A stretch of DNA of 64,000 nucleotides from Bradyrhizobium septentrionale (GTDB lineage: Bacteria > Pseudomonadota > Alphaproteobacteria > Rhizobiales > Xanthobacteraceae). This document shows, one piece after another, positions 47,434-64,000 of this stretch. Where the stretch lies: the NCBI RefSeq assembly GCF_011516645.4, contig NZ_CP088284.1, forward strand, positions 372,001-436,000, given 5' to 3'. How positions within the stretch are numbered: the stretch's first letter is position 1; the number at the start of each line of letters is the position of its first letter. The translations under genes and the position numbers were made by a program. Below the pieces are notes generated by a model that ran no database searches, was not told the origin of the DNA, and saw only the letters and a program-made list of their open reading frames with translations.

Positions 47434-48150
47434 TCACCCAGCCCCCTGCGCGATCGCCATCGGCGTCCGCTCGTCCTTCTCCAGGTGTCCATCCACAATG
47501 TGCAGCCGTCTATGCATTTGCGTGGCAAGGTTGACGTCATGCGTCACTGCTACGACCGTCTTGCCGTGCTCCGTAACGAGATCGCGCAGCATTTCGAATA
47601 CTTGCATGGTCGAGATGGAATCGAGGCTGCCGGTCGGCTCGTCCGCAAGGATGACCGGCGAGTCATTCGCGAGCGCGCGAGCCACGGCTACCCTCTGACG
47701 CTGGCCGCCGGAGAGCTGATCTGGACGTTTGCGAAGATGATCGCCTAGGTCCAAGGAGTTGAGCAGTTCCATGGCTCTAGCCGAGATCGCCGCTTGGGAA
47801 AGCTTGCCGAGTGCACGCATCGGCAGTGCGACATTTTCCGTAATCGAGAACTCCGGCAGCAGGAAATGAAACTGAAATACGAAGCCGAACTGGGTCAGCC
47901 GCATATGGGCGCGTTCCTCCGCGCTCATTGCCGTAGTCGAGCGATTGTTGACCAGGATATCGCCGCTGCTAGGAAGATCCAGCAGACCGAGCATATAGAG
48001 CAACGATGACTTGCCCGATCCGGACGGACCTGTGATCGCGATCAGCTCGCGCGCGCCAATCGACAAGTTCAAGTCGCGAACCAGCGTCACCGGGGCGATG
48101 CCTGGCAGCACCTTTGTCGCATTCCGTGCTACGATAAGCGCTGCCGTCAC
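47434..48150 (-). CDS. MacB/LolD-type ABC ATPase
   Basis: 238 residues. Walker A GPSGSGKSS, Q-loop FVFQFHFLLPEFS, signature LSGGQRQRVAVARAL and Walker B VILADEPTGSLDS are all intact, as is the switch His (VTHDV). These ATPases pair with FtsX-like permeases in efflux or lipoprotein release. It overlaps the permease gene downstream end by 4 bp. It remains intact while its partners are broken. Confidence 0.88.
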   Translation of the reverse strand: MTAALIVARNATKVLPGIAPVTLVRDLNLSIGARELIAITGPSGSGKSSLLYMLGLLDLPSSGDILVNNRSTTAMSAEERAHMRLTQFGFVFQFHFLLPEFSITENVALPMRALGKLSQAAISARAMELLNSLDLGDHLRKRPDQLSGGQRQRVAVARALANDSPVILADEPTGSLDSISTMQVFEMLRDLVTEHGKTVVAVTHDVNLATQMHRRLHIVDGHLEKDERTPMAIAQGAG

Positions 48151-49382
48151 GTCGCGCCCCTGATGATGTCGACGGGGTTGACCTCTGCGGCCGCGCGCGC
48201 GGGAAAGTATCCGGCGACAAGGCTGGTTGTCAGCGCGACCGAGGTGGCGATCGTGTAATGGGTAACCGAATAGAGCACTGGAAGATGATTGTGGTCCGAA
48301 AAGGAATCGTTGAACTCCAGTGAAGCCATTCCCCGCGTCAGGAGATAGCCAAATCCGCAGCCGAGTACCGCGCCGAAAAGCCCAATCGTCATGGCCGCAA
48401 TCATGAAGATCGCCTTCACGGTGCGTTCCGTGAACCCCAGCGATTTCATGATTGCGATGTCGCGCGTCTTTTCACGTGTGATGGTGGATAAGATGCTGTA
48501 GGTGCCAAAGCTTGCGACCAGAAGAATGGCGCCGACGATCGTGTACATCAGGACGTTACGAATGGTGATGGCCGACAGCAGATCCTCCTGGGCTTCCTGC
48601 TAGGAGATCGATTTGTAGCCGGTCTGCTCGCCGATACGCTCGCTGATCAGGCGCGCCTCCATTGGCTCGCGCGCACGAACCCGAATCTCGTTCACGATCC
48701 CGATCTGATTCTCAAGGGTCTGCGCAGTGCGAAGCAGGACGTAGCCTGTCGTTGCGTCCGTGGCGCGGAAGCCGGAATGGAAGGTGCCCACTACGGTTGC
48801 GGTCACGGTGATACCCCTGGCAGAAACCAGCGTGACTTTCGAGTTGACGCGGGTGCCGATTTTGCGCGCAAGGCCATCGCCGAGCAGAATCGCGTTGGAG
48901 GCACGGTAGAGCGAGGTGAGGCTGCCCTCGCGTACGTGGGTCGCGAGATTGGACACGCTGCTTTCGGTGTGTGGATCAATTCCGATCACGGAGATCGTAA
49001 GATTGCGGCCCGCATAACGCATCATGGCCTTGGATTGCACCGAGGGGGTAAGGGCGGCCGCAACCCAGGTCTGTAGCGAGGCGATGGTCGCCATCGGGTT
49101 CTTGATGCCGGGCCGTCGAACCGCGGGCGTGAGACCGTGGATTTCTGCAGCGGTGTAGAGGAGGTCGGCGGGCTGGGGCGTCGGCTCACGCCGTTCGTCT
49201 GTGAGGGAGATGTGGGGGAGCGCGTCGAGCAGTGTTGAGATGAAGTCGTTCTGCGATCCTTCCATCAGCGCGGCCATCATAATCGAGAAGCCGACGCCAA
49301 TTGCGACGCCCGCCACCCCGACCAGCGTCTGGTGGATGCGGTATGTGATGTGCGTCCAAACGATGGCAAGGATCAGCTTCAT
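48147..49382 (-). pseudogene. FtsX-type ABC permease with in-frame amber codon
   Basis: 411 codons in one frame, interrupted by TAG at 48602-48600 (codon 261). N-terminal helix IHQTLVGVAGVAIGVGFSIM, the periplasmic MacB-type domain in between, and after the stop the three C-terminal helices (VLMYTIVGAILLVASFGTYSIL, AIFMIAAMTIGLFGAVLG, TSVALTTSLVAGYFPARAA). The context SIS-stop-QEAQEDLL suggests Trp (TGG to TAG), as in related permeases with a W-Q-E motif at this spot. Same strand and overlapping start with the adaptor. Confidence 0.8.
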
Positions 49383-50481
49383 AGTGAGGACGCATCCGTC
49401 GCCCGTACCTTGACATGACCACGTGTTTGGATGTTCGCGGTCGCGGGCGACGCCACCATCTCATTCTCTTCAAGGCCGTCGACGATTTCGACGTGGCCGG
49501 CGCCACGAACGCCGATCTCGACTTTGCGCGGTGTCGGGCGGCCGTCCTTGACGACCAGTACCTCGTTGCCAATCACGGCATTGGCAGGAACGACGATCGC
49601 ATCCTGCTTCTCGCGTGCAACAATGTTAGCTTCCACGCTCATGCCGACGCGAAGTGGGCTGTCGTCGGGCAATCCGATCCGAACCCGGAAGGTTTTCGCG
49701 ATGGGATCGCCGGCCGGCGTGATTTCCTTGATGAACCCTGAGAGCACCTTTCCTGCAAACGCGTCGGTCCGCAACAACGCTCTTTGTCCGGGTTCGATCG
49801 GGGGACGTCTTCCTCGTTGACCTCGGCGACGACCCAGAGCGACTTTGCAAGTGCGAGGCGATAAAGGATCGTGCCAGGATCCACCATGTCGCCGATCTCC
49901 CCGTCTTCCCGCAGTACCGTGCCATCCATCGGAGCGACTATTTCGTAGAATCTCAACCGCTGCGTCTGTGCGGCGATCTGGGCTTGGACGCGTGCGAGGT
50001 CGCTTGCGGCCCTCTGTTCCATTTGCGCGGTCGTCGCGCCAAGCGCAAACAAGTGGGATTGCCGTTCGAACTCATGGCGCCGGAAATTCTCCAGCGCTCG
50101 CAGGTCGTTGAGCGTGGCCTGTGCCTCAGTGTCGTCAAGCCGAGCCAGGCGGTCTCCTTTGTGAACCGCTTTGCCCTCGCATCTGCAGCGCTCTATGATA
50201 CGACCGCGCACCAGGGGCGTGAGGCGCGACCAAGTTTCGGGCTCGACTGATCCGGTGGCATAAACGATCTCGGCCACCGGACCGCGAACGGCACGCGCGA
50301 TCGCGATTTCGGGCTCGTGCAGATACCAGACGAGGATGGCGGCTAGGACAAAGACAAGGCCGCCGATCAGCTTCCGGCCACGTCCCGGCGGCCTTGCTTT
50401 CGCATCTTTCGCTTCCGTCTCCGCCGCCGGAAGCGTTCGCAGCTGCACGTTCATTTGGGATTCGGCCTCAGAGACAGTCAT
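49379..50481 (-). pseudogene. MacA/HlyD-type periplasmic adaptor, frameshifted
   Basis: An N-terminal helix (KLIGGLVFVLAAILVWYL), biotinyl-like first half-motif, long coiled hairpin (EAQATLNDLRALENF...), and lipoyl/beta-barrel (EIVAPMDGTVLREDGEIG) are encoded in one frame. At 49800-49804 a run of five C on the coding strand shifts the frame; with six C the sequence would read through as VPPIEPGQRALL and continue in the second frame to 49379. Hence a one-base deletion in a homopolymer (or assembly error). Start taken at 50481; ATGs at 50577 and 50454 are alternatives. Confidence 0.78.
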
Positions 50482-51096
50482 CGCAGCGCTTCCCGATCGA
50501 GGCCCGAAGATCTCGCCCAAGACGGTAGCGAGGATTGGTGTTTCCCACGTCAACGGCGCCGTCTTGAACGGCTGCATTCAGTTGAAGGGGGACCCACTCT
50601 TTAAAATCGCCGAGCAGCGTGTTCCCGATGCAGGAATGGGGAAGTGAAATCTCGAGCTGCGGCCGGGCGCTGGCGTTCGCCTGCCGAAGGTTGGTCTCCG
50701 CTGACGATCCCGACGCGCCGCCCGACCTTTGTTGACGATCGGAGCACACTCGAATCGGGTGCTCTTCGAGCAGCATTGGGAGTTCGTGCAGCGGCATCTC
50801 CCGGGCGGCGGTCGCTACTTCCAAGGGCATGATGTCGCTGCTATCGACAGCTTGCGATTTCACCCGATCGGATGCCCGTGCGCGGCAACGCAGCCACCAG
50901 AGATAGAGGCGCTCGATTCCCGTTCGGCCCGATGCGGCAGGTCGGCTTTCGTGACGATGCGGACAACTCTGCTGCGGCCATCGACAACAGGGGTGACGGT
51001 GATCCCGTGCTCTCGGTAGGACCTTGGCGGCCTGCCAGACGGTTGCAGTCGTGCCGACGGTGGTCACCGAAGAAATCATGATGTCGCGGCTTGCAT
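50468..51096 (-). pseudogene. Ghost CBS-CBS-BON gene
   Basis: Degraded copy of the regulon's CBS-BON type. From the natural-looking ATG at 51096 (GGAGG 6-10 bp upstream) the frame is lost after a few codons. The CBS1 segment (SRDIMISSVTTVGTTATVWQAAKVL) and then REHGITVTPVVDGRSRVVRIVTKADL lie in different frames. CBS2-like (MPLHELPMLLEEHPI) and BON-like (IGNTLLGDFKEWVPLQLNA) follow. At least two frameshifts. A FixK-type box is 55 bp upstream. Confidence 0.68.
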
Positions 51097-53918: not shown

Positions 53919-56900
53919 ATGAAGATAGTACATCAGTCTCCTCCGATGCGCACAGATGCTTACGGGCCAAGCGACAGTAGCAGGCAGCAGGCTGCAACTC
54001 CGTCAATTTATTCTAGCGTCTTTGTTGGTAGTGGTACGCTAGCCATAAGGTGCTTGCAGCTAGCAAAGGAGATGGGTCACGACATCCGCGCGGCGCTGTG
54101 TGCCGACGCTACATTCGCCGATTGGGCCGCTCGCGCCAATATCCTGTGTGTGGTGAGCGTTGAAGAGCTCTCCATGTTGCTGAAGGCCGAGCCGGTGGAA
54201 TGGATTTTTTCCGTTGCTAATCCGTTCGTGCTGCCGCCGGAGGTGTTTGGGCGAGCCCGTCAAGGCGCTTTCAACTACCATGACGGTCCATTGCCGCGAT
54301 ATGCAGGAACCCATGCGACGTCCTGGGCGCTTCTTGCCGGGGAGACCGAACATGGCATCACGTGGCATCGTATCGCTCATGGGGTTGATACTGGTGAGCT
54401 GGTAGTACAGCGCCAAGTGTTGATTGCGCCGAGTGATACGGCATTGACGCTGAATCTCAGATGTTATGAGGCTGCTATCGAGGGCTTCCGCGAGCTTCTA
54501 ACTGGCTTAACAAATGGAGAGCTCGGTGCTCGTCCGCAGGCGCTAGCGGACCGAAGTTTTTTCCCGAAACGTCGCCGCCCAGATGCTGCGGGTTGTCTGC
54601 GATGGGATCGACCAGCGCAGGGTCTGGCAGCGATGACACGTGCCTTGGACTTTGGCCCCTATCATGCCAATCTGTTGGGTCTGTCCAAGGTTTTTGTAGG
54701 CGATGACTTCGTCCCCGTCAGGCGCTTGGAGGTGACGGCCGGGAGCTCGGGCTTTGCGGCGGGGTCTCTAGTTGAAATCCACCCTAGCCATTGGCGTGTC
54801 GCGACAGGCACAGAGGATGTTGATGTTTGGTTTGGCAGCTCAGATGGTCAGGCTCTGGACGCGCGGACAGTCGCGAGGCGTTCTGGTTTCGATGTAGGCG
54901 GCCGCCTCCCGATTCTGAGCGATGACGAGGCCCGGAGCATAACGGTTGCGCATGAATTGTTGGCGCCTCGGGAGAGTTTTTGGCGAGGGCGGCTTGAGAA
55001 GTTCAAAACATACCAGCTTGCTTTTTTGCCGTCTGCAAAAGCTGCGGCTGGGCTCAGATGGCAGTCTAGTGCGTGGCGAATTCCAGAAGAGTTGCTTGGG
55101 CTGTCCCCCAGTGATCGCGCGGAATTCTTGCTAACTGCTTGGCTGGTCTATCTCGCCCGCATCACGGGGGAATCAGAGCTTCAATTGGGATGGACTCCCG
55201 CGCCGAATGGATCGCGAGCCGGCGTGAAAGCGCTCGAGGTGCTTGTTGCGTCTGTCGTGCCGATGGGAATTACCATCGACCTTGATAATGATTTCGTAGA
55301 GGCGCGCACGGCGGTCGCGGCAGAATTCGCTCAGCTGAATGAGCAGGATACCTTTGCGCGGGATCTTATTGCGCGATGCCCGACGTTGCGCGGTGTGGAG
55401 GCGCTACGATTGCGCCGTCCCTGGCCGGTTGGCGTTACGGTTACGGTAAATGGCGGATCTGCCACTGGTGATCTAGCGTCGAGCCCGATTTCTGAGGCGG
55501 CCCTGGCTGGTGAGGCGCTAACGTTTGAGGTTTGCGCTCTGGATGGGAGCTTCCGATGGCACTTTGATGCAAGTCGCCTGGAGCCCAATCAGATCGAGCG
55601 TATGACACAGCATTTGCAGAATTTGTTGTGTGCTGTGAAGGCTGATGCGCAGCAGCCGGTGGGGCGGGTTGAACTCTTGTCATCCTCTGAGCGGGCGTAT
55701 GTGTTGGAGGCGCTGAACCGGACGGCGGTGACGTATCCTGAGCAGCAGTGCATCCATGAGCTGTTCGAGGCCCAGGTGCGCCGTGCGCCGGATGCGGTGG
55801 CGGTGGTGTGCGCGGAGGAGCGCGTCAGCTATGGCGAGCTCAATGCGCGGGCCAACCAGCTGGCGCATCATCTGATCGCAATTGGGGTGACGCCGGACCA
55901 GCCGGTGGCGATCTGCCTACAGCGCAGTCCGATGATGGTGGTGGGGCTGTTGGCGATCCTGAAGGCGGGTGGGGCCTATCTGCCGCTGGACCCGGCCTAT
56001 CCGAGCGCGCGGCTGCGCCAGGTGCTTGCGGATGCGGCGCCGTCGCTGCTGCTGGCCGATGCGGCGGGACGATCGGCGCTGGGCGCCGATGCGCTACGCG
56101 ATCTGACGGTAGTGGATCTGGCGGCGGCGAGCCCGGCCTGGGCGGCGCTGCCGGCCACCGATCCCGACCCGTGCGCGCTCGGCCTGACCTCGCGCCATCT
56201 GGCCTATGTGATCTACACCTCGGGCTCGTCAGGCACCCCCAAGGGCGTCATGGCCGAGCATCGGAGCCTGGTGCGTCTAGTGGCGGGGAACGACTTCGTC
56301 GAGATCTCGCCGCAGGACGTCTTTCTCAACGCATCCTCGCCGACATTCGACGCGACCACGTTCGAGCTCTGGGGAGCCTTAGCAAACGGTGCGAGTGTTG
56401 TGCTCTATCCTGAACGCTACCTCTCGACAGCAACGCTGGCCCAGATCATCCAAGATCAAGGCATCACCATCGCCTGGATGACTGCCCGGTTGTTCGATAC
56501 CTATACCGCAGAGGGGCGCGGCACTGATCGGCTGCAGCAACTGCTGGTCGGAGGCGAAGAGGTCTCCGTCACTTCCGTTAGAGCATGCCAGAAGCGACAT
56601 CCGACGCTGCGGATCTCAAATGCCTACGGCCCGACAGAGAACACCACCTTCAGTCTCTGCTATCCGGTGCCTGCTGGCTTTGATGGAGCCATTGTCCCGA
56701 TTGGCCGTCCGATTGCGAACACGCGGGTGTACCTGCTGGACGGTCATGGTGCGCCGGTTCCGTTTGGCGCGGCGGGTGAGCTTTACATTGGCGGGGCGGG
56801 GGTGGCGCGCGGCTATCTGAACCGGCCGGAGCTGACGGCGGAGCGGTTCATCGCCAGCCCGTTTGTGGACGGCGACCGGCTGTACCGCACTGGCGATCTG

Positions 56901-59900
56901 GCGCGCTACCTGCCGGACGGCAATCTTGAGTTTTTGGGCCGCAACGACGACCAGGTGAAGATCCGCGGCTTCCGGATCGAGCCGGGGGAGATTGCGGCGC
57001 GGCTCATCGAGCATGCCTGGGTGCGCGATGCGGTGGTGGTGGCGCAGCAGGATGGCGCCGGCGAGAAGCGGCTGGTGGCCTATGTGGTGTGCGCGCCTGA
57101 AGCTCGATCGGATGAGCCGGATGGCGCTGGCGCTGAGCTGGCCGCGACGTTGCGGGCGCATGTGGGCGCGCACCTGCCGGACTACATGGTGCCGGCGGCG
57201 TTCGTGCGGCTGGCGGCGCTGCCGCTGACGGTGAACGGCAAGCTCGACCGCCAGGCGCTGCCGGCACCTGCGGATGAGGCGTATGCGCATCGCGCTTACG
57301 CGCCGCCGCAGGGCGAGATCGAGACGGCGCTGGCGCAGATCTGGGCCGAGCTTCTCGGTGTGGAGCGGGTCGGACGCCACGACCACTTCTTCGAACTGGG
57401 CGGCCACTCGCTCTTGGCGGTGCAGTTCTTGAGCCGGCTGTCGCAGGCGCTGGGTGTAGCGCTGCCGCTGGCGGCGCTGTTTGCCAAACCGGTGCTGGCC
57501 GATCTGGCGACGAACATTGTCGAGATGTTGAGCCGCTGCGGTCCGCAAGACCTGCCGGCGATTGTCGGCGTGTCGCGTGATGAACCGCTTGTGCTGTCGT
57601 TTGCGCAGCAGCGGCTGTGGTTTTTGGCGCAGCTGGATCAGGATAGCACGAGCTATCACGTGCCGCTGGCCTTGCGGCTGCGCGGCGTGCTCGACCGCCG
57701 CGCCTGGCGGCGCAGCCTTGACCGTGTGTTGGCGCGTCATGAGGCGCTGCGTAGCGTCTTTGTCGCGCCGGAGGGCAAGCCCTGGGTTGAGGTGCTGCCG
57801 CCGGATGCGGGGCTGCCGGTGCTCGAGCACGATCTGCGGGACAGGCCGGATGCGGACGCGGCGCTTTTGGATCTGTGCCGGGAAGAGGCGCGCACGCCGT
57901 TTGATCTGGCGCGCGGGCCGCTGATCCGGGGCCGCCTGATCCGCACCTCGGATGGGGAGCACGTGTTCCTGCTGACCCAGCATCACATTGTCTCCGATGG
58001 CTGGTCGCTGGGCGTCTTGGTGCGCGAACTCAGTCAGCTGTACCGGGCGTTCGTAGCTGGGCAGGACGATCCGCTGCCGCCGCTTGCGATCCAGTATCCG
58101 GACTATGCCGCCTGGCAGCGGCAGTGGCTGTCGGGGGAACGGCTGCAGCGCCAGGCGCAGTATTGGCGCAACAATCTATCTGGCGCGCCGGCCCGTCTGG
58201 CGCTGCCGACAGATCGGCCTCGGCCGGCAGAGCAGTCGTTTGCCGGGGCCAACCTGCCTGTCGTGATCGATGCGGATCTGACGCGGGATCTGAAGCGGCT
58301 GAGCCGGCAGCATGGCACGACCTTGTTCATGACGGTGTTGGCGGCGTGGGCGGCGGTGCTGTTGCGTCTGTCGGGGCAGGACGACATTGTGATCGGGGTG
58401 CCGAGCGCCAATCGAGGTCGGTGCGAGCTCGAAGGGTTGATCGGGTTCTTCGTCAACGCCCTGGCGCTTCGCCTCGACCTGTCGGGCGCGCCGAGCGTGG
58501 CGGAGCTGTTGGAGCGGACGCGGCGCACGGCCTTGGGAGCACAGGAGCATCAGGACCTGCCGTTTGAGCAGGTGGTGGAGATCGTGCAGCCGCCACGGCA
58601 TCTTGATCACACCCCGCTGTTCCAGGTGATGCTGGCCTGGCAGAACAACGCCATCCCGTCCTTCGACCTTCCCGGGCTGCTGGTGGAGGCTGCGGGGCAG
58701 GGGTTCGATCAGGTCAAGTTCGATCTGGAGCTGAACCTTTGCGAACATGGCGAGGTGATCGCCGGGACGCTGGGTTATGCCACGGCGCTGTTTGATCAGG
58801 CGACGATCGAGCGACAGCGGGGGTATCTGCTGGCGCTGCTGCGGGCGATGGTTGCCGATGCGCAGCAAGAGGTCGGGCGGATTGAGCTGCTGCCCCCTGA
58901 CGAGCGGGCGTACCTGTTGGAGGCGCTGAACCGGACGGCGGTGACGTATCCTGAGCAGCAGTGCATCCATGAGCTGTTCGAGGCCCAGGTGCGCCGTGCG
59001 CCGGATGCGGTGGCGGTGGTGTGCGCGGAGGAGCGCGTCAGCTATGGCGAGCTCAATGCGCGGGCCAACCAGCTGGCGCATCATCTGATCGCAATTGGGG
59101 TGACGCCGGACCAGCCGGTGGCGATCTGCCTACAGCGCAGTCCGATGATGGTGGTGGGGCTGTTGGCGATCCTGAAGGCGGGTGGGGCCTATCTGCCGCT
59201 GGACCCGGCCTATCCGAGCGCGCGGCTGCGCCAGGTGCTTGCGGATGCGGCGCCGTCGCTGCTGCTGGCCGATGCGGCGGGACGATCGGCGCTGGGCGCC
59301 GATGCGCTACGCGATCTGACGGTAGTGGATCTGGCGGCGGCGAGCCCGGCCTGGGCGGCGCTGCCGGCCACCGATCCCGACCCGTGCGCGCTCGGCCTGA
59401 CCTCGCGCCATCTGGCCTATGTGATCTACACCTCGGGCTCGTCAGGCACCCCCAAGGGCGTCATGGTCGAGCATCGGAGCCTGGTCAATCTTGTCGCATG
59501 GCATGTGCAAACGTTTTGTCCGCAACCAGAAGCCTGCTGCGCACTCGTGGCTGGAGTGGCATTCGATGCCAGCACCTGGGAGCTATGGTCTGCGTTATGC
59601 AACCGCAGCACATTGCAGCTGCCGCCCAAAGCGACAGCTGCAGATTCCTTGCGTCTGCTGCAATGGTGGCGAGATCAATCGCTGGACGTTGCCTTTTTGA
59701 TCACGCCACTGGCTACACTCGCGCTGGAAGATAAGCTCATCAACTCCAGATTGGAGTACTTGCTTGTTGGCGGGGAACGTCTCCAGCGTGTGCCTGGGCC
59801 TCTGTCGCCTCTGAAGCTAATCAACAACTATGGGCCTACTGAAGCTACGGTCGTGGCGACCTCAGGACGGCTCTTCAGCGACAACGCTGTGCCGCATATC

Positions 59901-62900
59901 GGCCGTCCGATCGCGAACACGCGGGTGTACCTGCTGGACGGTCATGGTGCGCCGGTTCCGTTTGGCGCGGTCGGGGAGCTTTACATTGGCGGGGCGGGGG
60001 TGGCGCGCGGCTATCTGAACCGGCCGGAGCTGACGGCGGAGCGGTTCATCGCCAGCCCGTTTGTGGACGGCGACCGGCTGTACCGCACTGGCGATCTGGC
60101 GCGCTACCTGCCGGACGGCAATCTTGAGTTTTTGGGCCGCAACGACGACCAGGTGAAGATCCGCGGCTTCCGGATCGAGCCGGGGGAGATTGCGGCGCGG
60201 CTCATCGAGCATGCCTGGGTGCGCGATGCGGTGGTGGTGGCGCAGCAGGATGGCGCCGGCGAGAAGCGGCTGGTGGCCTATGTGGTGTGCGCGCCTGAAG
60301 CTCGATCGGATGAGCCGGATGGCGCTGGCGCTGAGCTGGCCGCGACGTTGCGGGCGCATGTGGGCGCGCACCTGCCGGACTACATGGTGCCGGCGGCGTT
60401 CGTGCGGCTGGCGGCGCTGCCGCTGACGGTGAACGGCAAGCTCGACCGCCAGGCGCTGCCGGCACCTGCGGATGAGGCGTATGCGCATCGCGCTTACGCG
60501 CCGCCGCAGGGCGAGATCGAGACGGCGCTGGCGCAGATCTGGGCCGAGCTTCTCGGTGTGGAGCGGGTCGGACGCCACGACCACTTCTTCGAACTGGGCG
60601 GCCACTCGCTCTTGGCGGTGCAGCTGATGGAGCGGCTGCGGCGGCGGTCGCTGGGGGTCGAGGTGCGGACCTTGTTTGCAAAGCCCGTGCTGGCGGATCT
60701 GGCCGCGAGCCTCGGCAGTCATCACGAGGTGGCGGTCCCGGCCAACCTGATCAGCGAACAGAGTGCGGCGATCAGGCCAGAGATGCTGCCGCTGATCGAG
60801 CTGACGCAGGACGAGATCGCGCGGATCGTCGTCACGGTGCCGGGCGGCGTCGGCAACATCCAGGACATTTATGGCTTGTCGCCGCTGCAGGACGGCATCC
60901 TGTTCCATCATCTGTTGGCGACAAAGGGCGATCCGTACCTGCTGGTCTCGCAGATGGCGTTTGCCGATCGTGACCTGCTCGAGCGCTATCTTGCCGCGGT
61001 TCAGCGGGTGGTGGGTCGGCACGATATCCTGAGGACGTCGTTTGTCTGGGAAGGGCTGTCGCGCCCGGCCCAGGTGGTGTGGCGGAACGCGCCGCTGGAG
61101 GTGAGCGAGGTCGAGCTGGACGGGTCTGGTGGTCCTGGCGCCGCGCAGCTTAAGGATCGGTTTGATCCGCGCCGGCAGCGCATCGAGCTTGGCCGGGCGC
61201 CCTTGTTGCGGTTTGTGATTGCGCGCGAGCCCGGCAGTGCGCGCTGGCTGCTGCTGGAGCTGCAGCATCATCTGATCGGGGATCACACCACGCTGGAGGT
61301 GATGCATGCCGAGGTCCGGGCCGTGCTGGAGGGACGCGAGCATGAGCTGGCAGCCCCGCAGCCGTTCCGCAACCTGGTGGCGGCGGCACGGCTTGGCGTG
61401 GGTGCAGAGGCGCATGAAGAGTTCTTCCGGACGATGCTGGGGGACATCGCTGAGCCGACCACGCCGTTTGGGCTGAGCGAGGTCCACGGCGAGGGCCGCG
61501 GGGCTCATGAGGCGCGGCGCATGCTGCCGCAGGCGCTCAACGCGCGATTGCGCAGCCAGGCGCGGCGGCTGGGGGTGAGCCTGGCGAGCCTGTGCCATCT
61601 GGCCTGGGGGCAGGTGGTGGCGCGCAGCAGCGACCGCGAGCAGGTGGTGTTCGGCACGGTGCTGTTCGGCCGCATGCATGGCGGGGCGGGTGGCGACCGC
61701 GCGATGGGTCTGTTCATCAACACGCTGCCGCTGCGGCTTGACCTGGACGGGACCGGGGTCGAGGCGAGCGTGCGGACCACCCACGCGCGGCTGGCCGAGC
61801 TGCTCGCACATGAGCATGCCTCGCTGGCGCTGGCGCAACGCTGCAGCGGCGTTGCGGCGCCGGCGCCGCTGTTCAGCGCGCTGTTGAACTACCGCCACAA
61901 CACGCCGGCGGCGATCTCCGCCTCCGCAGCCGATGATGCGCTGTCCGGCGTGGAATGGCTGGGCGGGGAGGAGCGCACCAACTATCCGCTGATCTTGTCG
62001 GTGGAGGATTTTGGCGAGGCACTCGGGCTGACGGCGCAGGTGGCGGAGGGCGTCTCAGCGGATCGGGTCTGCGGCTACATGCAGCACACGCTCGCGCAAC
62101 TGGCGGAGGCGCTGGAGCGGGCGCCGACCACGCCGGTGCGGGAGCTGGACATCCTGCCCCCTGACGAGCGGGCGTACCTGTTGGAGGCGCTGAACCGGAC
62201 GGCGGTGACGTATCCTGAGCAGCAGTGCATCCATGAGCTGTTCGAGGCCCAGGTGCGCCGTGCGCCGGATGCGGTGGCGGTGGTGCGCGCGGAGGAGCGC
62301 GTCAGCTATGGCGAGCTCAATGCGCGGGCCAACCAGCTGGCGCATCATCTGATCGCAATTGGGGTGACGCCGGACCAGCCGGTGGCGATCTGCCTACAGC
62401 GCAGTCCGATGATGGTGGTGGGGCTGTTGGCGATCCTGAAGGCGGGTGGGGCCTATCTGCCGCTGGACCCGGCCTATCCGAGCGCGCGGCTGCGCCAGGT
62501 GCTTGCGGATGCGGCGCCGTCGCTGCTGCTGGCCGATGCGGCGGGACGATCGGCGCTGGGCGCCGATGCGCTACGCGATCTGACGGTAGTGGATCTGGCG
62601 GCGGCGAGCCCGGCCTGGGCGGCGCTGCCGGCCACCGATCCCGACCCGTGCGCGCTCGGCCTGACCTCGCGCCATCTGGCCTATGTGATCTACACCTCCG
62701 GATCCACCGGAACGCCCAAGGGCGTCATGATTGAGCATGCGAGCACCGTGAACCTGCTGCATTGGAGCAGCGGCGTGTTTGCGGAGGAGACCAGCCGCAT
62801 GCTGTTCTCCACCTCGATCAGTTTTGATCTGTCGATCTATGAGTGCTTCGTTCCGCTGTCACAAGGAAGCACGCTTTATCTTGTCGAAAGTGCGTTGACG

Positions 62901-64000
62901 CTGGGGCAGACGTCCTTGGATGTCTCCTTGATCAACACAGTCCCCTCGGCGATCGCCGCTCTGGTCGATAACAAAGCCGTGCCGCCCTCGACAAGGGTCA
63001 TCAATTTGGCGGGCGAGCGGCTGCAGGCAGGCCTCATAGAGAAGGCTTTCGAGAGCAGTCGGGTCGAGAAGATCTGCAATCTGTACGCGCCTTCGGAAAC
63101 CACGACGTACTCGACCTGGATTTGCATGCGACGGGGAGAGACTGTCGTCGAGACGATTGGCCGTCCGATCGCGAACACGCGGGTGTACCTGCTGGACGGT
63201 CATGGTGCGCCGGTTCCGTTTGGCGCGGTCGGGGAGCTTTACATTGGCGGGGCGGGGGTGGCGCGCGGCTATCTGAACCGGCCGGAGCTGACGGCGGAGC
63301 GGTTCATCGCCAGCCCGTTTGTGGACGGCGACCGGCTGTACCGCACTGGCGATCTGGCGCGCTACCTGCCGGACGGCAATCTTGAGTTTTTGGGCCGCAA
63401 CGACGACCAGGTGAAGATCCGCGGCTTCCGGATCGAGCCGGGGGAGATTGCGGCGCGGCTCATCGAGCATGCCTGGGTGCGCGATGCGGTGGTGGTGGCG
63501 CAGCAGGATGGCGCCGGCGAGAAGCGGCTGGTGGCCTATGTGGTGTGCGCGCCTGAAGCTCGATCGGATGAGCCGGATGGCGCTGGCGCTGAGCTGGCCG
63601 CGACGTTGCGGGCGCATGTGGGCGCGCACCTGCCGGACTACATGGTGCCGGCGGCGTTCGTGCGGCTGGCGGCGCTGCCGCTGACGGTGAACGGCAAGCT
63701 CGACCGCCAGGCGCTGCCGGCACCTGCGGATGAGGCGTATGCGCATCGCGCTTACGCGCCGCCGCAGGGCGAGATCGAGACGGCGCTGGCGCAGATCTGG
63801 GCCGAGCTTCTCGGTGTGGAGCGGGTCGGACGCCACGACCACTTCTTCGAACTGGGCGGCCACTCGCTCTTGGCGGTGCAGCTGATGGAGCGGCTGCGGC
63901 GGCGGTCGCTGGGGGTCGAGGTGCGGACCTTGTTTGCAAAGCCCGTGCTGGCGGATCTGGCCGCGAGCCTCGGCAGTCATCACGAGGTGGCGGTCCCGGC
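53919..64000 (+). CDS. NRPS with N-terminal formyltransferase domain, 3' end beyond window
   Basis: Uninterrupted frame of 3360 codons in the window, checked by translation and by frame position of motifs from 54270 to 63864. Domains: formyltransferase (residues about 30-195; NYHDGPLPRYAG near 119) with C-terminal subdomain (to about 345); a degenerate condensation-like section (about 348-588) without HHxxxDG; A1 (600-1110); T1 (Ser1164 in LGGHSL); LCL-type C (HHIVSDG at 1355); A2 (1665-2185); T2 (Ser2230); a C domain with HHLLATKGD (2330) and HHLIGDH (2450), dual condensation/epimerisation type; A3 (2755-3270); T3 (Ser3316). Predicted pockets: DAFWLGATF (valine-like), DAWFLGNVV (Leu), DLYNNALTY (Ala-like). 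Expected product begins formyl-Val-D-Leu-Ala or similar. No thioesterase or further modules are visible here. ATG chosen since an in-frame stop precedes it; no strong ribosome site. Confidence 0.9.
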   Translation, partial: MKIVHQSPPMRTDAYGPSDSSRQQAATPSIYSSVFVGSGTLAIRCLQLAKEMGHDIRAALCADATFADWAARANILCVVSVEELSMLLKAEPVEWIFSVANPFVLPPEVFGRARQGAFNYHDGPLPRYAGTHATSWALLAGETEHGITWHRIAHGVDTGELVVQRQVLIAPSDTALTLNLRCYEAAIEGFRELLTGLTNGELGARPQALADRSFFPKRRRPDAAGCLRWDRPAQGLAAMTRALDFGPYHANLLGLSKVFVGDDFVPVRRLEVTAGSSGFAAGSLVEIHPSHWRVATGTEDVDVWFGSSDGQALDARTVARRSGFDVGGRLPILSDDEARSITVAHELLAPRESFWRGRLEKFKTYQLAFLPSAKAAAGLRWQSSAWRIPEELLGLSPSDRAEFLLTAWLVYLARITGESELQLGWTPAPNGSRAGVKALEVLVASVVPMGITIDLDNDFVEARTAVAAEFAQLNEQDTFARDLIARCPTLRGVEALRLRRPWPVGVTVTVNGGSATGDLASSPISEAALAGEALTFEVCALDGSFRWHFDASRLEPNQIERMTQHLQNLLCAVKADAQQPVGRVELLSSSERAYVLEALNRTAVTYPEQQCIHELFEAQVRRAPDAVAVVCAEERVSYGELNARANQLAHHLIAIGVTPDQPVAICLQRSPMMVVGLLAILKAGGAYLPLDPAYPSARLRQVLADAAPSLLLADAAGRSALGADALRDLTVVDLAAASPAWAALPATDPDPCALGLTSRHLAYVIYTSGSSGTPKGVMAEHRSLVRLVAGNDFVEISPQDVFLNASSPTFDATTFELWGALANGASVVLYPERYLSTATLAQIIQDQGITIAWMTARLFDTYTAEGRGTDRLQQLLVGGEEVSVTSVRACQKRHPTLRISNAYGPTENTTFSLCYPVPAGFDGAIVPIGRPIANTRVYLLDGHGAPVPFGAAGELYIGGAGVARGYLNRPELTAERFIASPFVDGDRLYRTGDLARYLPDGNLEFLGRNDDQVKIRGFRIEPGEIAARLIEHAWVRDAVVVAQQDGAGEKRLVAYVVCAPEARSDEPDGAGAELAATLRAHVGAHLPDYMVPAAFVRLAALPLTVNGKLDRQALPAPADEAYAHRAYAPPQGEIETALAQIWAELLGVERVGRHDHFFELGGHSLLAVQFLSRLSQALGVALPLAALFAKPVLADLATNIVEMLSRCGPQDLPAIVGVSRDEPLVLSFAQQRLWFLAQLDQDSTSYHVPLALRLRGVLDRRAWRRSLDRVLARHEALRSVFVAPEGKPWVEVLPPDAGLPVLEHDLRDRPDADAALLDLCREEARTPFDLARGPLIRGRLIRTSDGEHVFLLTQHHIVSDGWSLGVLVRELSQLYRAFVAGQDDPLPPLAIQYPDYAAWQRQWLSGERLQRQAQYWRNNLSGAPARLALPTDRPRPAEQSFAGANLPVVIDADLTRDLKRLSRQHGTTLFMTVLAAWAAVLLRLSGQDDIVIGVPSANRGRCELEGLIGFFVNALALRLDLSGAPSVAELLERTRRTALGAQEHQDLPFEQVVEIVQPPRHLDHTPLFQVMLAWQNNAIPSFDLPGLLVEAAGQGFDQVKFDLELNLCEHGEVIAGTLGYATALFDQATIERQRGYLLALLRAMVADAQQEVGRIELLPPDERAYLLEALNRTAVTYPEQQCIHELFEAQVRRAPDAVAVVCAEERVSYGELNARANQLAHHLIAIGVTPDQPVAICLQRSPMMVVGLLAILKAGGAYLPLDPAYPSARLRQVLADAAPSLLLADAAGRSALGADALRDLTVVDLAAASPAWAALPATDPDPCALGLTSRHLAYVIYTSGSSGTPKGVMVEHRSLVNLVAWHVQTFCPQPEACCALVAGVAFDASTWELWSALCNRSTLQLPPKATAADSLRLLQWWRDQSLDVAFLITPLATLALEDKLINSRLEYLLVGGERLQRVPGPLSPLKLINNYGPTEATVVATSGRLFSDNAVPHIGRPIANTRVYLLDGHGAPVPFGAVGELYIGGAGVARGYLNRPELTAERFIASPFVDGDRLYRTGDLARYLPDGNLEFLGRNDDQVKIRGFRIEPGEIAARLIEHAWVRDAVVVAQQDGAGEKRLVAYVVCAPEARSDEPDGAGAELAATLRAHVGAHLPDYMVPAAFVRLAALPLTVNGKLDRQALPAPADEAYAHRAYAPPQGEIETALAQIWAELLGVERVGRHDHFFELGGHSLLAVQLMERLRRRSLGVEVRTLFAKPVLADLAASLGSHHEVAVPANLISEQSAAIRPEMLPLIELTQDEIARIVVTVPGGVGNIQDIYGLSPLQDGILFHHLLATKGDPYLLVSQMAFADRDLLERYLAAVQRVVGRHDILRTSFVWEGLSRPAQVVWRNAPLEVSEVELDGSGGPGAAQLKDRFDPRRQRIELGRAPLLRFVIAREPGSARWLLLELQHHLIGDHTTLEVMHAEVRAVLEGREHELAAPQPFRNLVAAARLGVGAEAHEEFFRTMLGDIAEPTTPFGLSEVHGEGRGAHEARRMLPQALNARLRSQARRLGVSLASLCHLAWGQVVARSSDREQVVFGTVLFGRMHGGAGGDRAMGLFINTLPLRLDLDGTGVEASVRTTHARLAELLAHEHASLALAQRCSGVAAPAPLFSALLNYRHNTPAAISASAADDALSGVEWLGGEERTNYPLILSVEDFGEALGLTAQVAEGVSADRVCGYMQHTLAQLAEALERAPTTPVRELDILPPDERAYLLEALNRTAVTYPEQQCIHELFEAQVRRAPDAVAVVRAEERVSYGELNARANQLAHHLIAIGVTPDQPVAICLQRSPMMVVGLLAILKAGGAYLPLDPAYPSARLRQVLADAAPSLLLADAAGRSALGADALRDLTVVDLAAASPAWAALPATDPDPCALGLTSRHLAYVIYTSGSTGTPKGVMIEHASTVNLLHWSSGVFAEETSRMLFSTSISFDLSIYECFVPLSQGSTLYLVESALTLGQTSLDVSLINTVPSAIAALVDNKAVPPSTRVINLAGERLQAGLIEKAFESSRVEKICNLYAPSETTTYSTWICMRRGETVVETIGRPIANTRVYLLDGHGAPVPFGAVGELYIGGAGVARGYLNRPELTAERFIASPFVDGDRLYRTGDLARYLPDGNLEFLGRNDDQVKIRGFRIEPGEIAARLIEHAWVRDAVVVAQQDGAGEKRLVAYVVCAPEARSDEPDGAGAELAATLRAHVGAHLPDYMVPAAFVRLAALPLTVNGKLDRQALPAPADEAYAHRAYAPPQGEIETALAQIWAELLGVERVGRHDHFFELGGHSLLAVQLMERLRRRSLGVEVRTLFAKPVLADLAASLGSHHEVAVP
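54000..54960 (+). other. NRPS formyltransferase initiation domain
   Basis: Methionyl-tRNA-formyltransferase-like fold: the FNYHDGPLPRYAGTHATSW block gives the Asn/His of the catalytic centre and HGVDTGELV the later Asp region. The C-terminal OB-like part follows (about 54590-54930; LDFGPYHANLLGLSKVF). In gramicidin synthetase LgrA the same domain formylates the first aminoacyl-T intermediate using formyl-tetrahydrofolate. Confidence 0.85.
55702..56253 (+). repeat. NRPS repeat block a, copy 1 (A-domain N-terminal part)
   Basis: Identical by eye to 58915-59466 over 552 bp and nearly identical to 62179-62698. Encodes the stretch from before A1 core to the ATP-binding A3 core motif (YTSGSSGTPKG). 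Confidence 0.85.
56778..57425 (+). repeat. NRPS repeat block b, copy 1 (A-domain C-terminal part plus T)
   Basis: Identical by eye to 59976-60623 (648 bp) and to the third copy. Encodes cores A6 to A10 (GGAGVARGYL, RTGDLARY, NGKLDR) and the T-domain start through LGGHSLLAVQ. Confidence 0.85.
58915..59466 (+). repeat. NRPS repeat block a, copy 2
   Basis: See copy 1. Directly followed by the divergent A2 pocket cassette (59467-59900). Confidence 0.85.
59901..60742 (+). repeat. NRPS repeat block b, copy 2 (extended)
   Basis: 842 bp matching 63159-64000 without a difference that I saw, including the T domain and the linker after it; the true repeat probably continues beyond the window edge. Confidence 0.85.
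62179..62698 (+). repeat. NRPS repeat block a, copy 3
   Basis: 520 bp matching copies 1 and 2 with one difference seen (position 62286, changing Cys to Arg). Ends at YTS of the A3 core, where this copy switches to GSTGTPKG. Confidence 0.82.
63159..64000 (+). repeat. NRPS repeat block b, copy 3
   Basis: Matches 59901-60742 to the last base of the window. Confidence 0.85.

Follow-up and report, generated by a model that had tools for sequence, protein, structure and literature searches.

Near-identical adenylation-domain frames around variable pocket cassettes in nonribosomal peptide synthetase arrays of Bradyrhizobium septentrionale

Frames and pocket cassettes in the window gene

The stretch of DNA analyzed here (the window) comprises 64,000 nucleotides of Bradyrhizobium septentrionale, bases 372001–436000 of contig NZ_CP088284.1 (C1; 456,902 bp), in a genome of 10.4 Mb. 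An open reading frame (ORF) that starts at position 53919 on the forward strand and runs off the window end encodes a nonribosomal peptide synthetase (NRPS), in which a formyl-transferase domain is followed by adenylation (A), thiolation (T) and condensation (C) domains in the order A-T-C-A-T-C-A-T. Pfam identified three AMP-binding, two Condensation, three PP-binding and one Formyl_trans_N domain in this ORF. The gene begins an array, K1, which continues to the end of C1 and over the contig join to the contig start, and contains 11 A domains. Its last reading frame terminates in a thioesterase (PF00975), and breaks in the reading frame were found only outside the window. Two further arrays are present in the genome, K2 (C1:51–93 kb, 13 A domains) and K3 (C2:5.33–5.34 Mb, 5 A domains).

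Each A domain in the window consists of two conserved blocks, the N-frame and the C-frame, on either side of a pocket cassette. Compared with A2, the frames of A1 and A3 were 99.6–100% identical (0–3 nt differing per block), which bears out the shared flanking blocks of the original prediction, made from the window sequence alone, but not their perfect identity. The cassettes were unrelated in sequence, and identity resumed in the C-block (670 nt measured) at 56700, 59898 and 63156. Variable centres had been noticed in these three A domains; the pattern is not confined to them and runs past the window through all 11 A domains of K1, whose N-frames (530 nt) and C-frames (670 nt) were 99.4–100% identical to those of A2. 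GC content was 70% in the frames and 57–59% in the cassettes of A1–A3, in line with the lower GC richness proposed for the latter.

At 4-fold synonymous sites, the frames differed at 1/253 positions between A1 and A2, 1/253 between A1 and A3 and 0/255 between A2 and A3, whereas the cassettes differed at 21/24, 7/11 and 13/19, respectively (Fisher p = 2.5e-27, 1.6e-10 and 4.6e-18). Because the contrast between frames and cassettes holds at these sites, it cannot be explained by selection at the protein level.

Borders were mapped as change points on a ruler of A2 codons, using 274 pairs of unlike cassette type in 13 arrays. The A domains were taken from tblastn hits, of which 433/507 were kept (85% coverage, no stop); due to this filter, the set holds 8/11 A domains of K1, 12/13 of K2 and 4/5 of K3. 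The same set underlies the trees, topology tests, 4-fold divergences and composition results below. In K1, the 5' change points depended on the pair and lay at codons 179.7–198.7 (median 179.7, between YTS and G), and the 3' change points lay at codons 327.3–334.7 (median 333.7, between H and IGRPIANTR). Array medians ranged from 179.7 to 194.0 for the 5' border (from YTS/G to EHR/S; extremes 146.0–198.7) and from 332.5 to 347.7 for the 3' border (around H/IGRPI; extremes 322.0–363.7). Breakpoints in the 13 arrays thus flank the substrate pocket sharply within the A core. In GrsA numbering, the 5' median corresponds to K205 in 7/13 arrays (codon 193.0) and approximately to G192 in the two K1-type arrays, and the 3' medians to approximately 346 to 361. 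The cassettes first placed at 56254–56702, 59467–59900 and 62699–63158 fit the K1 change points, as do the proposed borders, the YTSG(S/T) motif on the 5' side and the sequence preceding core A6 on the 3' side. They begin at or shortly after core A3, end between A5 and A6 and hold the specificity residues, as had been claimed.

The specificity codes of A1–A3 were read by hand; automatic alignment misplaces one position in some cassette types. DAFWLGATF (A1) is predicted to be Val-like, DAWFLGNVV (A2) Leu and DLYNNALTY (A3) Ala-like. For the other cassette types, the predictions are Phe-like for C, Ser for E, Asn-like for F, Thr for G, Asp-like for H and Pro-like for J. The formyl-transferase domain is fused ahead of the A-T starter (Pfam), an arrangement in which the first residue may be formylated. 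The best solved-structure match of the A2–T2 stretch was the linear gramicidin synthetase LgrA, which also carries a formyl-transferase domain before an A-T starter. Unlike LgrA, 11 modules of C-A-T type follow here in this assembly. We also observed that K1-type arrays are reminiscent of linear gramicidin in their formyl-transferase start and in their predicted residues, most of which are hydrophobic (Val, Leu, Ala and Phe).

The C domains of K1, K2 and related arrays fall into two main types in varying order. Among the K1 copies compared, neither the type 1 nor the type 2 C regions showed a difference over 1500 nt. Downstream of the C-frame, the sequence varies in step with the type of the next C domain, and the two types look exchangeable as T-C blocks. 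The type 1 domain in module 3 carries HHLLATKGD, which resembles the HH[I/L]xxxxGD motif near the N-terminus of dual condensation/epimerisation domains and makes it a candidate for this class. Stereochemistry, if set, would come from the C domains.

Beside the NRPS gene, at 47434–50577 on the reverse strand, are ORFs resembling an ABC transporter ATPase, a permease and a periplasmic adaptor, a possible exporter. Genes with similar names adjoin the array in strains 162S2 and 2S1. A search of the window against Rfam was negative at gathering scores. Coordinates of the NRPS features are collected in Table 1.

Table 1. Features of the NRPS gene within the window (window coordinates).
Feature	Position	Strand	Basis or remark
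NRPS gene (start of K1 array)	53919..63998	+	ORF, Pfam
Formyl-transferase domain ahead of first A domain (residues 82-190)	54162..54488	+	PF00551, 69.9 bits vs cut-off 26.1
A1 N-frame, homogenised	55684..56213	+	99.6% to A2 N-frame
A1 pocket cassette, type D, 5' border approximate	56254..56699	+	Val-like code (predicted)
A1 C-frame, homogenised	56700..57412	+	99.6% to A2 C-frame
Module 1 T domain	57327..57512	+	PP-binding, residues 1137-1198
Module 2 C domain, type 2, HHIVSDG motif at 57981	57591..58916	+	Pfam, motif
A2 N-frame, homogenised	58897..59426	+	Reference copy
A2 pocket cassette, type B, 5' border approximate	59467..59897	+	Leu code (predicted)
A2 C-frame, homogenised	59898..60610	+	Sequence identity
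Module 3 C domain, type 1, carries HHLLATKGD, ends approximate	60800..62150	+	Pfam, motif
A3 N-frame, homogenised	62161..62690	+	Sequence identity to A2
A3 pocket cassette, type A (type B in same module of strain 162S2)	62699..63155	+	Ala-like code (predicted)
A3 C-frame, homogenised	63156..63868	+	Sequence identity to A2

Frame and cassette relationships across arrays

Frames were 99–100% identical within K1, 98–100% within K2 (module 3 apart) and 90–100% within K3, and 81–88% identical between these arrays. Their cassettes shared approximately 35–48% identity between types (the defective module 4 of K1 apart) and 77–94% within the same type across arrays. A wider array set gave frame identities of 99–100% within most arrays and 81–91% between most array types, with same-type cassettes 73–100% identical across arrays and approximately 40% between types. 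Eight recurrent cassette types cover 138/156 A domains of the window genome and its relatives (13/77 loci; rhizobial loci L064, L068 and L073 left out). An extra type, 'L', in K1 module 4 proved to be type D with many indels and was not counted.

Trees of 53 A domains from seven arrays and nine cassette types placed frames and cassettes in conflict. On the frame tree, the array changed 7 times and the cassette type 29 times; on the cassette tree, the type changed 8 times, the minimum for nine types, and the array 24 times. Approximately unbiased (AU) tests on the frames rejected clades of types A, C and D (p = 9e-85, 3e-52 and 2e-10), and those on the cassettes rejected clades of the K1 and K2 arrays (p = 1e-40 and 5e-6). 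Frames group by array and not by position or substrate, as concerted evolution has it, and cassettes do not.

K3 and the G027 array share a cassette order (DCAEC), with orthologous cassettes 92–98% identical. Their N-frames were no closer at the same position (89–94%) than at other positions (87–94%). Identity among N-frames was 92–100% within K3 and 86–96% within G027, and homogenisation is therefore stronger in K3. Among six related arrays (H-type), 5/21 polymorphic frame sites were uniform within every array (3/7 before the cassette, a count that excludes module 1S5_R.2 on account of register, and 2/14 after it), and the rest segregated in at least one array.

Several arrays differed between strains by loss or gain of whole modules, and some modules are copies that share C type, frame and cassette. 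H-type arrays had eight A domains in 41S5 and 1S5, seven in 5S5, six in 38S5 and five in 27S5 and 12S5. Another set had six A domains in 144S4, USDA 123 and 323S2 vs. four in S06B. K1-type counts, all three subject to assembly doubt, were 11 in the window genome, seven in 162S2 and 16 in 2S1. The order of K2 was the same in the window genome, in 2S1 and in 12 modules read from 162S2.

A step in base composition coincided with the step in identity. Across 21 sets of rhizobial arrays (including L079 of Cupriavidus; near-identical sets are K1/2S1a/162S2, K2/2S1b/L065/L066 and 41S5/27S5), GC content at 4-fold sites (GC4) was 92.0% in the N-frame, 66.5% in the cassette and 88.2% in the C-frame, with 4-fold GC skews of +0.40, +0.06 and +0.31. 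The 51 control loci (L086–L088 and L090–L137) were flat (GC4 76.6, 78.5 and 75.3%; skew +0.21, +0.14 and +0.14), and one of these, the unhomogenised Bradyrhizobium NRPS L086, showed no step (82/84/84%). The 22 other genes in the window had a mean GC4 of 74.2% (64–85%) and a skew of −0.07. Outside the control set, from which L076–L085 and L089 were left out, GC4 excess was +12 to +25 in L079, L080, L082, L085 and L089, and little or none (−5.5 to +5) in L076, L077, L078, L081, L083 and L084. As an observation in its own right, synonymous GC and G-skew were high in the homogenised frames (55684–63868; K1–K3 and relatives) and at plasmid background in the cassettes. Module 3 of 2S1b, like K2 module 3, stands out in its otherwise uniform array by an N-frame that is unhomogenised; GC4 of this 2S1b N-frame was 75% vs. 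array means of 92–93%.

Frame identity correlated with GC4 excess (Spearman 0.66; 158 rows, 79 loci), although one family supplies most of the high-identity rows, and the correlation therefore does not count as independent evidence. Counter-rows were the L078 C-frame (92.5% identity, excess −3.2) and the L071 N-frame (<85%, +25.6). GC-biased gene conversion was considered for the GC4 step and was not supported. Polarised frame singletons numbered 21 strong-to-weak (S>W) and 0 W>S in eight core lineages, and 10 and 0, respectively, with all 15 lineages; derived-allele frequencies were 0.44 for W>S (14 sites) and 0.38 for S>W (57 sites; p = 0.40). Given these negative tests, inherited composition seems a likelier source of the step than ongoing GC-biased conversion.

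In-place pocket swaps

Plasmid NZ_CP096256.1 of B. barranii 1S5 carries two copies, P and Q, of a K2-like array in genes of 36.1 kb and 29.8 kb. Module P.9 has a type E cassette and its counterpart Q.5 a type G cassette; over the 3.2-kb module, 277/277 differences were in the cassette and 0 outside. The modules before and after differed at 0 and 1 positions, respectively. Donor candidates reside in the same two arrays, as the Q.5 cassette had 0 differences to those of P2, P5, P13, Q8 and Q9. The swap is bounded by the A3 motif and IYLLDDHG, and presumably converts between a Ser-like (P.9) and a Thr-like (Q.5) code, both predicted. The copies also differ by lost modules. Pairs P.11–Q.7 and P.13–Q.8 had 814 and 1557 differing positions outside the cassette, which we take to be due to different module parts following, and were left out of the swap argument. 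We also observed that 113450–156279 and 270019–299796 of this plasmid form an inverted duplication of the NRPS array and its transporter genes.

A second swap separates B. septentrionale 5S5.3 (type C) from Bradyrhizobium 41S5.4 (type B), with 247 differences, 246 in the cassette and 1 outside; the six other aligned modules differed at 0–5 positions each. The C cassette of 5S5.3 was 98.6% identical (ends trimmed) to those of K1.10, 2S1a.8, 2S1a.10 and 162S2.5, while frames of the K1-type arrays and of the 5S5/41S5 array type are 85–88% identical. In the three modules read from B. quebecense 66S1MB, the position of 5S5.3 likewise holds type C, with 17 cassette differences from 5S5. In both swaps the C-A linker, the A-sub and the A-sub/T interface are unchanged (0 and 1 differences outside the cassette). 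Replacement of the pocket only, as originally suggested, is thus seen in natural pairs, and the proposed search for donors yielded 100% identical cassettes in the first case and 98.6% identical ones in the second.

The window itself offers a weaker case owing to its assembly. Its array is near identical to that of strain 162S2, yet module 3 is type A here and type B there, with 261 differences over the 3258-nt module. One lies at position 125 and the other 260 fall within 538–1073, two of them just past the called cassette. The published average nucleotide identity of 1S1 vs. 162S2 is 99.8% (PMC8374602), a value that covers the window only if its strain is 1S1.

Divergence at 4-fold sites between arrays differed by cassette type. 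The B cassettes of K1 and 41S5 differed at 2/75 sites vs. 0.21–0.23 in their frames, and the E cassettes of K2 and K3 at 7/66 vs. 0.23–0.24. Types A, C and D diverged by 0.26–0.29 between K1 and K2 or K3 (frames 0.22–0.29), and type B by 0.45 between K1 and K2, above the frames. Frame-like or larger divergence implies that many cassettes have long been in place.

Origin of the mosaic and relation to known systems

We consider it probable (approximately 0.87) that these are NRPSs of constant frames and exchangeable pocket cassettes, in which recombination homogenises the frames and replaces the pockets. Each A domain comprises a constant frame and a cassette of approximately 430–500 nt that carries the specificity residues; the cassette starts at core A3 or slightly beyond it and stops between A5 and A6. 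Homologous recombination between modules, by gene conversion and unequal crossing-over, would keep the frames near identical within an array, and each C domain type likewise. Cassettes of unlike type would be too divergent (~40% nt identity) for homogenisation, with different substrates keeping them apart. A tract that starts and ends in the identical frames around a cassette could then replace the whole pocket and leave the rest unchanged. In soybean-nodule Bradyrhizobium, cassettes would in this way be copied inside single arrays as well as from one array or plasmid to another. The original prediction had offered gene conversion of everything but the pocket as the other source of the pattern; clustering of frames by array and of cassettes by type, and the disregard of K3 and G027 frames for position, point to this process as well.

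Whole-module duplication alone, followed by divergence of the pockets under selection with the rest conserved, could account for modules that share C type, frame and cassette and for strains that differ by whole modules. It appears highly improbable, as the frames are nearly without synonymous differences where most comparable 4-fold sites of the cassettes differ. Cassettes of the same type also occur in other arrays, A, C and D at about frame-like divergence; since types are shared across arrays, they are older than the frame identity of an array. The conflict between frame and cassette trees contradicts duplication alone too. Homogenisation of the frames only, with cassettes that never move while all else is converted around them, would suit the common order of K3 and G027 with frames that do not track position, the conserved K2 order and the about frame-like divergence of types A, C and D. 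The in-place swaps in 1S5 and 5S5 contradict it, unless those records are misassembled, as does the low 4-fold divergence of types B and E, and we give this explanation very little credence.

A third explanation is that assembly or polishing collapsed distinct frames into one consensus, which the original prediction had itself raised. The module 4 cassette and the contig join of K1 are defective amid perfect frames, and published reads of 1S1 and 162S2 average 11.6 and 9.0 kb (PMC8374602). Nevertheless, the pattern recurs in arrays with long ORFs of other strains, and two deposited assemblies of 323S2, which may share reads, agree on cassette order. Assemblies also keep real differences between N-frames (~5% in K3, ~9% in G027), and some polymorphic frame sites (5/21) distinguish the six related arrays from one another while showing no variation inside any of them. 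Collapse is therefore very unlikely to underlie the pattern as a whole, and it stands as a problem for part of K1.

Several observations weigh against recombining frames and cassettes, or against their reading in K1. The K1 module 4 cassette (C1:437949–438484, outside the window) is type D with scattered differences and indels, as if long-read sequence had gone unpolished there while reads from other copies polished the neighbouring frames. Modules 5 and 9 carry single-base indels, and the contig join (end and start of C1) lies within the array, with a small gap, inside identical repeats. Consequently, frame identity in K1 may be partly inflated by consensus polishing, and the count of 11 modules, part of the perfect frame identity and the module 3 difference from 162S2 may be artefacts. 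Neither 162S2 nor 2S1 has its K1-type array annotated as a whole gene, and the 5S5 gene is annotated as two overlapping genes; breaks in the reading frame are possible in all of these records. The general conclusion rests on arrays other than K1. Among these, G027 N-frames are as close to K3 as to each other (median 90.7% vs. 90.5%), and those of G021/G005 are merely 77–81% alike within arrays. K2 module 3 (C1:58907–60600) has an unhomogenised N-frame, 65–68% identical to other K2 frames. It is also the sole module at which 1S5 P departs from the K2 order in cassette type (type C in P), and it differs from P.3 over approximately 1.6 kb, beyond the cassette alone.

A-core subdomain recombination was reportedly described by Crusemann in 2013 (hormaomycin) and by Kries in 2015. 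Recombination of this flavodoxin-like subdomain is established in NRPSs (Baunach et al. 2021, PMC8097286; Calcott et al. 2020, PMC7486941; PMC9205934; PMC8616955), and natural exchange is concentrated between A2 and A4 and again from close to A5, while K205/A322 and T221/I352 have served as cut points in engineering (Calcott 2020, PMC7486941). As in those cases, the exchange unit here lies in the A core around the pocket, the C-A linker and A-sub stay, and donors come from the same or another cluster. The arrays differ in having one frame across nearly all modules, and this common frame makes approximately 10 cassette types a portable set over many arrays and plasmids; donors and recipients also persist side by side. 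Concerted evolution of polyketide synthase (PKS) and NRPS modules likewise yields array-specific domain clades, credited to internal recombination (Medema et al. 2014, PMC4256081). Here, a single domain contains both a homogenised and an exempt part, and the borders between them, around the pocket, are sharp.

Genetic repeats of intense nucleotide skew (GRINS) in PKSs are repeats of about 1 kb with >90% identity, G-biased and tied to gene conversion, with GC and TA skews >25% (PMC10394414). The frames resemble them in length and identity (two blocks in each A domain, of 530 and 670 nt, plus C domains). Membership was rejected, as whole-sequence frame GC skew and TA skew were each +0.06 to +0.16, below 25%; unlike in GRINS, skew is strong only at synonymous sites, and the genes encode NRPSs and not PKSs. 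A more tentative suggestion, and a doubtful one, is that the arrays form a natural pocket-exchange platform. Compositionally distinct frames (GC4 ~88–92%, synonymous G-skew) would serve as permanent homology arms for a circulating set of approximately 10 cassettes, reshuffled on and among the plasmids of soybean-nodule bradyrhizobia, and strains that are otherwise near-identical could then make different peptides; the recoded frames might be a recombination-prone proteobacterial NRPS counterpart of GRINS.

A search of open-licence full texts on adenylation-domain recombination in Bradyrhizobium NRPSs gave no paper that appears to describe this system, and the B. septentrionale species paper gave no hit for nonribosomal (or non-ribosomal) peptide synthetases. 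A-core swapping and NRPS concerted evolution are already published; the before-and-after pairs that nature provides here are unusually clean. The ways in which NRPSs alter their specificity, and the exchange unit that nature uses for this, are central questions for NRPS engineering. Engineered pocket swaps have had mixed success: partial A-domain swaps have been described as generally unsuccessful or inefficient (Calcott 2020, PMC7486941), whereas 12/17 were productive in another study (Thong 2021). In the pairs seen here, a 3.2-kb module occurs with either of two pockets and is otherwise almost unchanged, and many further A domains carry approximately 10 cassette types in shared frames. This material makes it possible to test directly what pockets a given frame accepts and how sensitive the upstream C domain is to them. 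To judge from the predicted codes, a cassette swap would change the peptide product, and cassette exchange by recombination would be one natural way of re-programming peptide synthetases.

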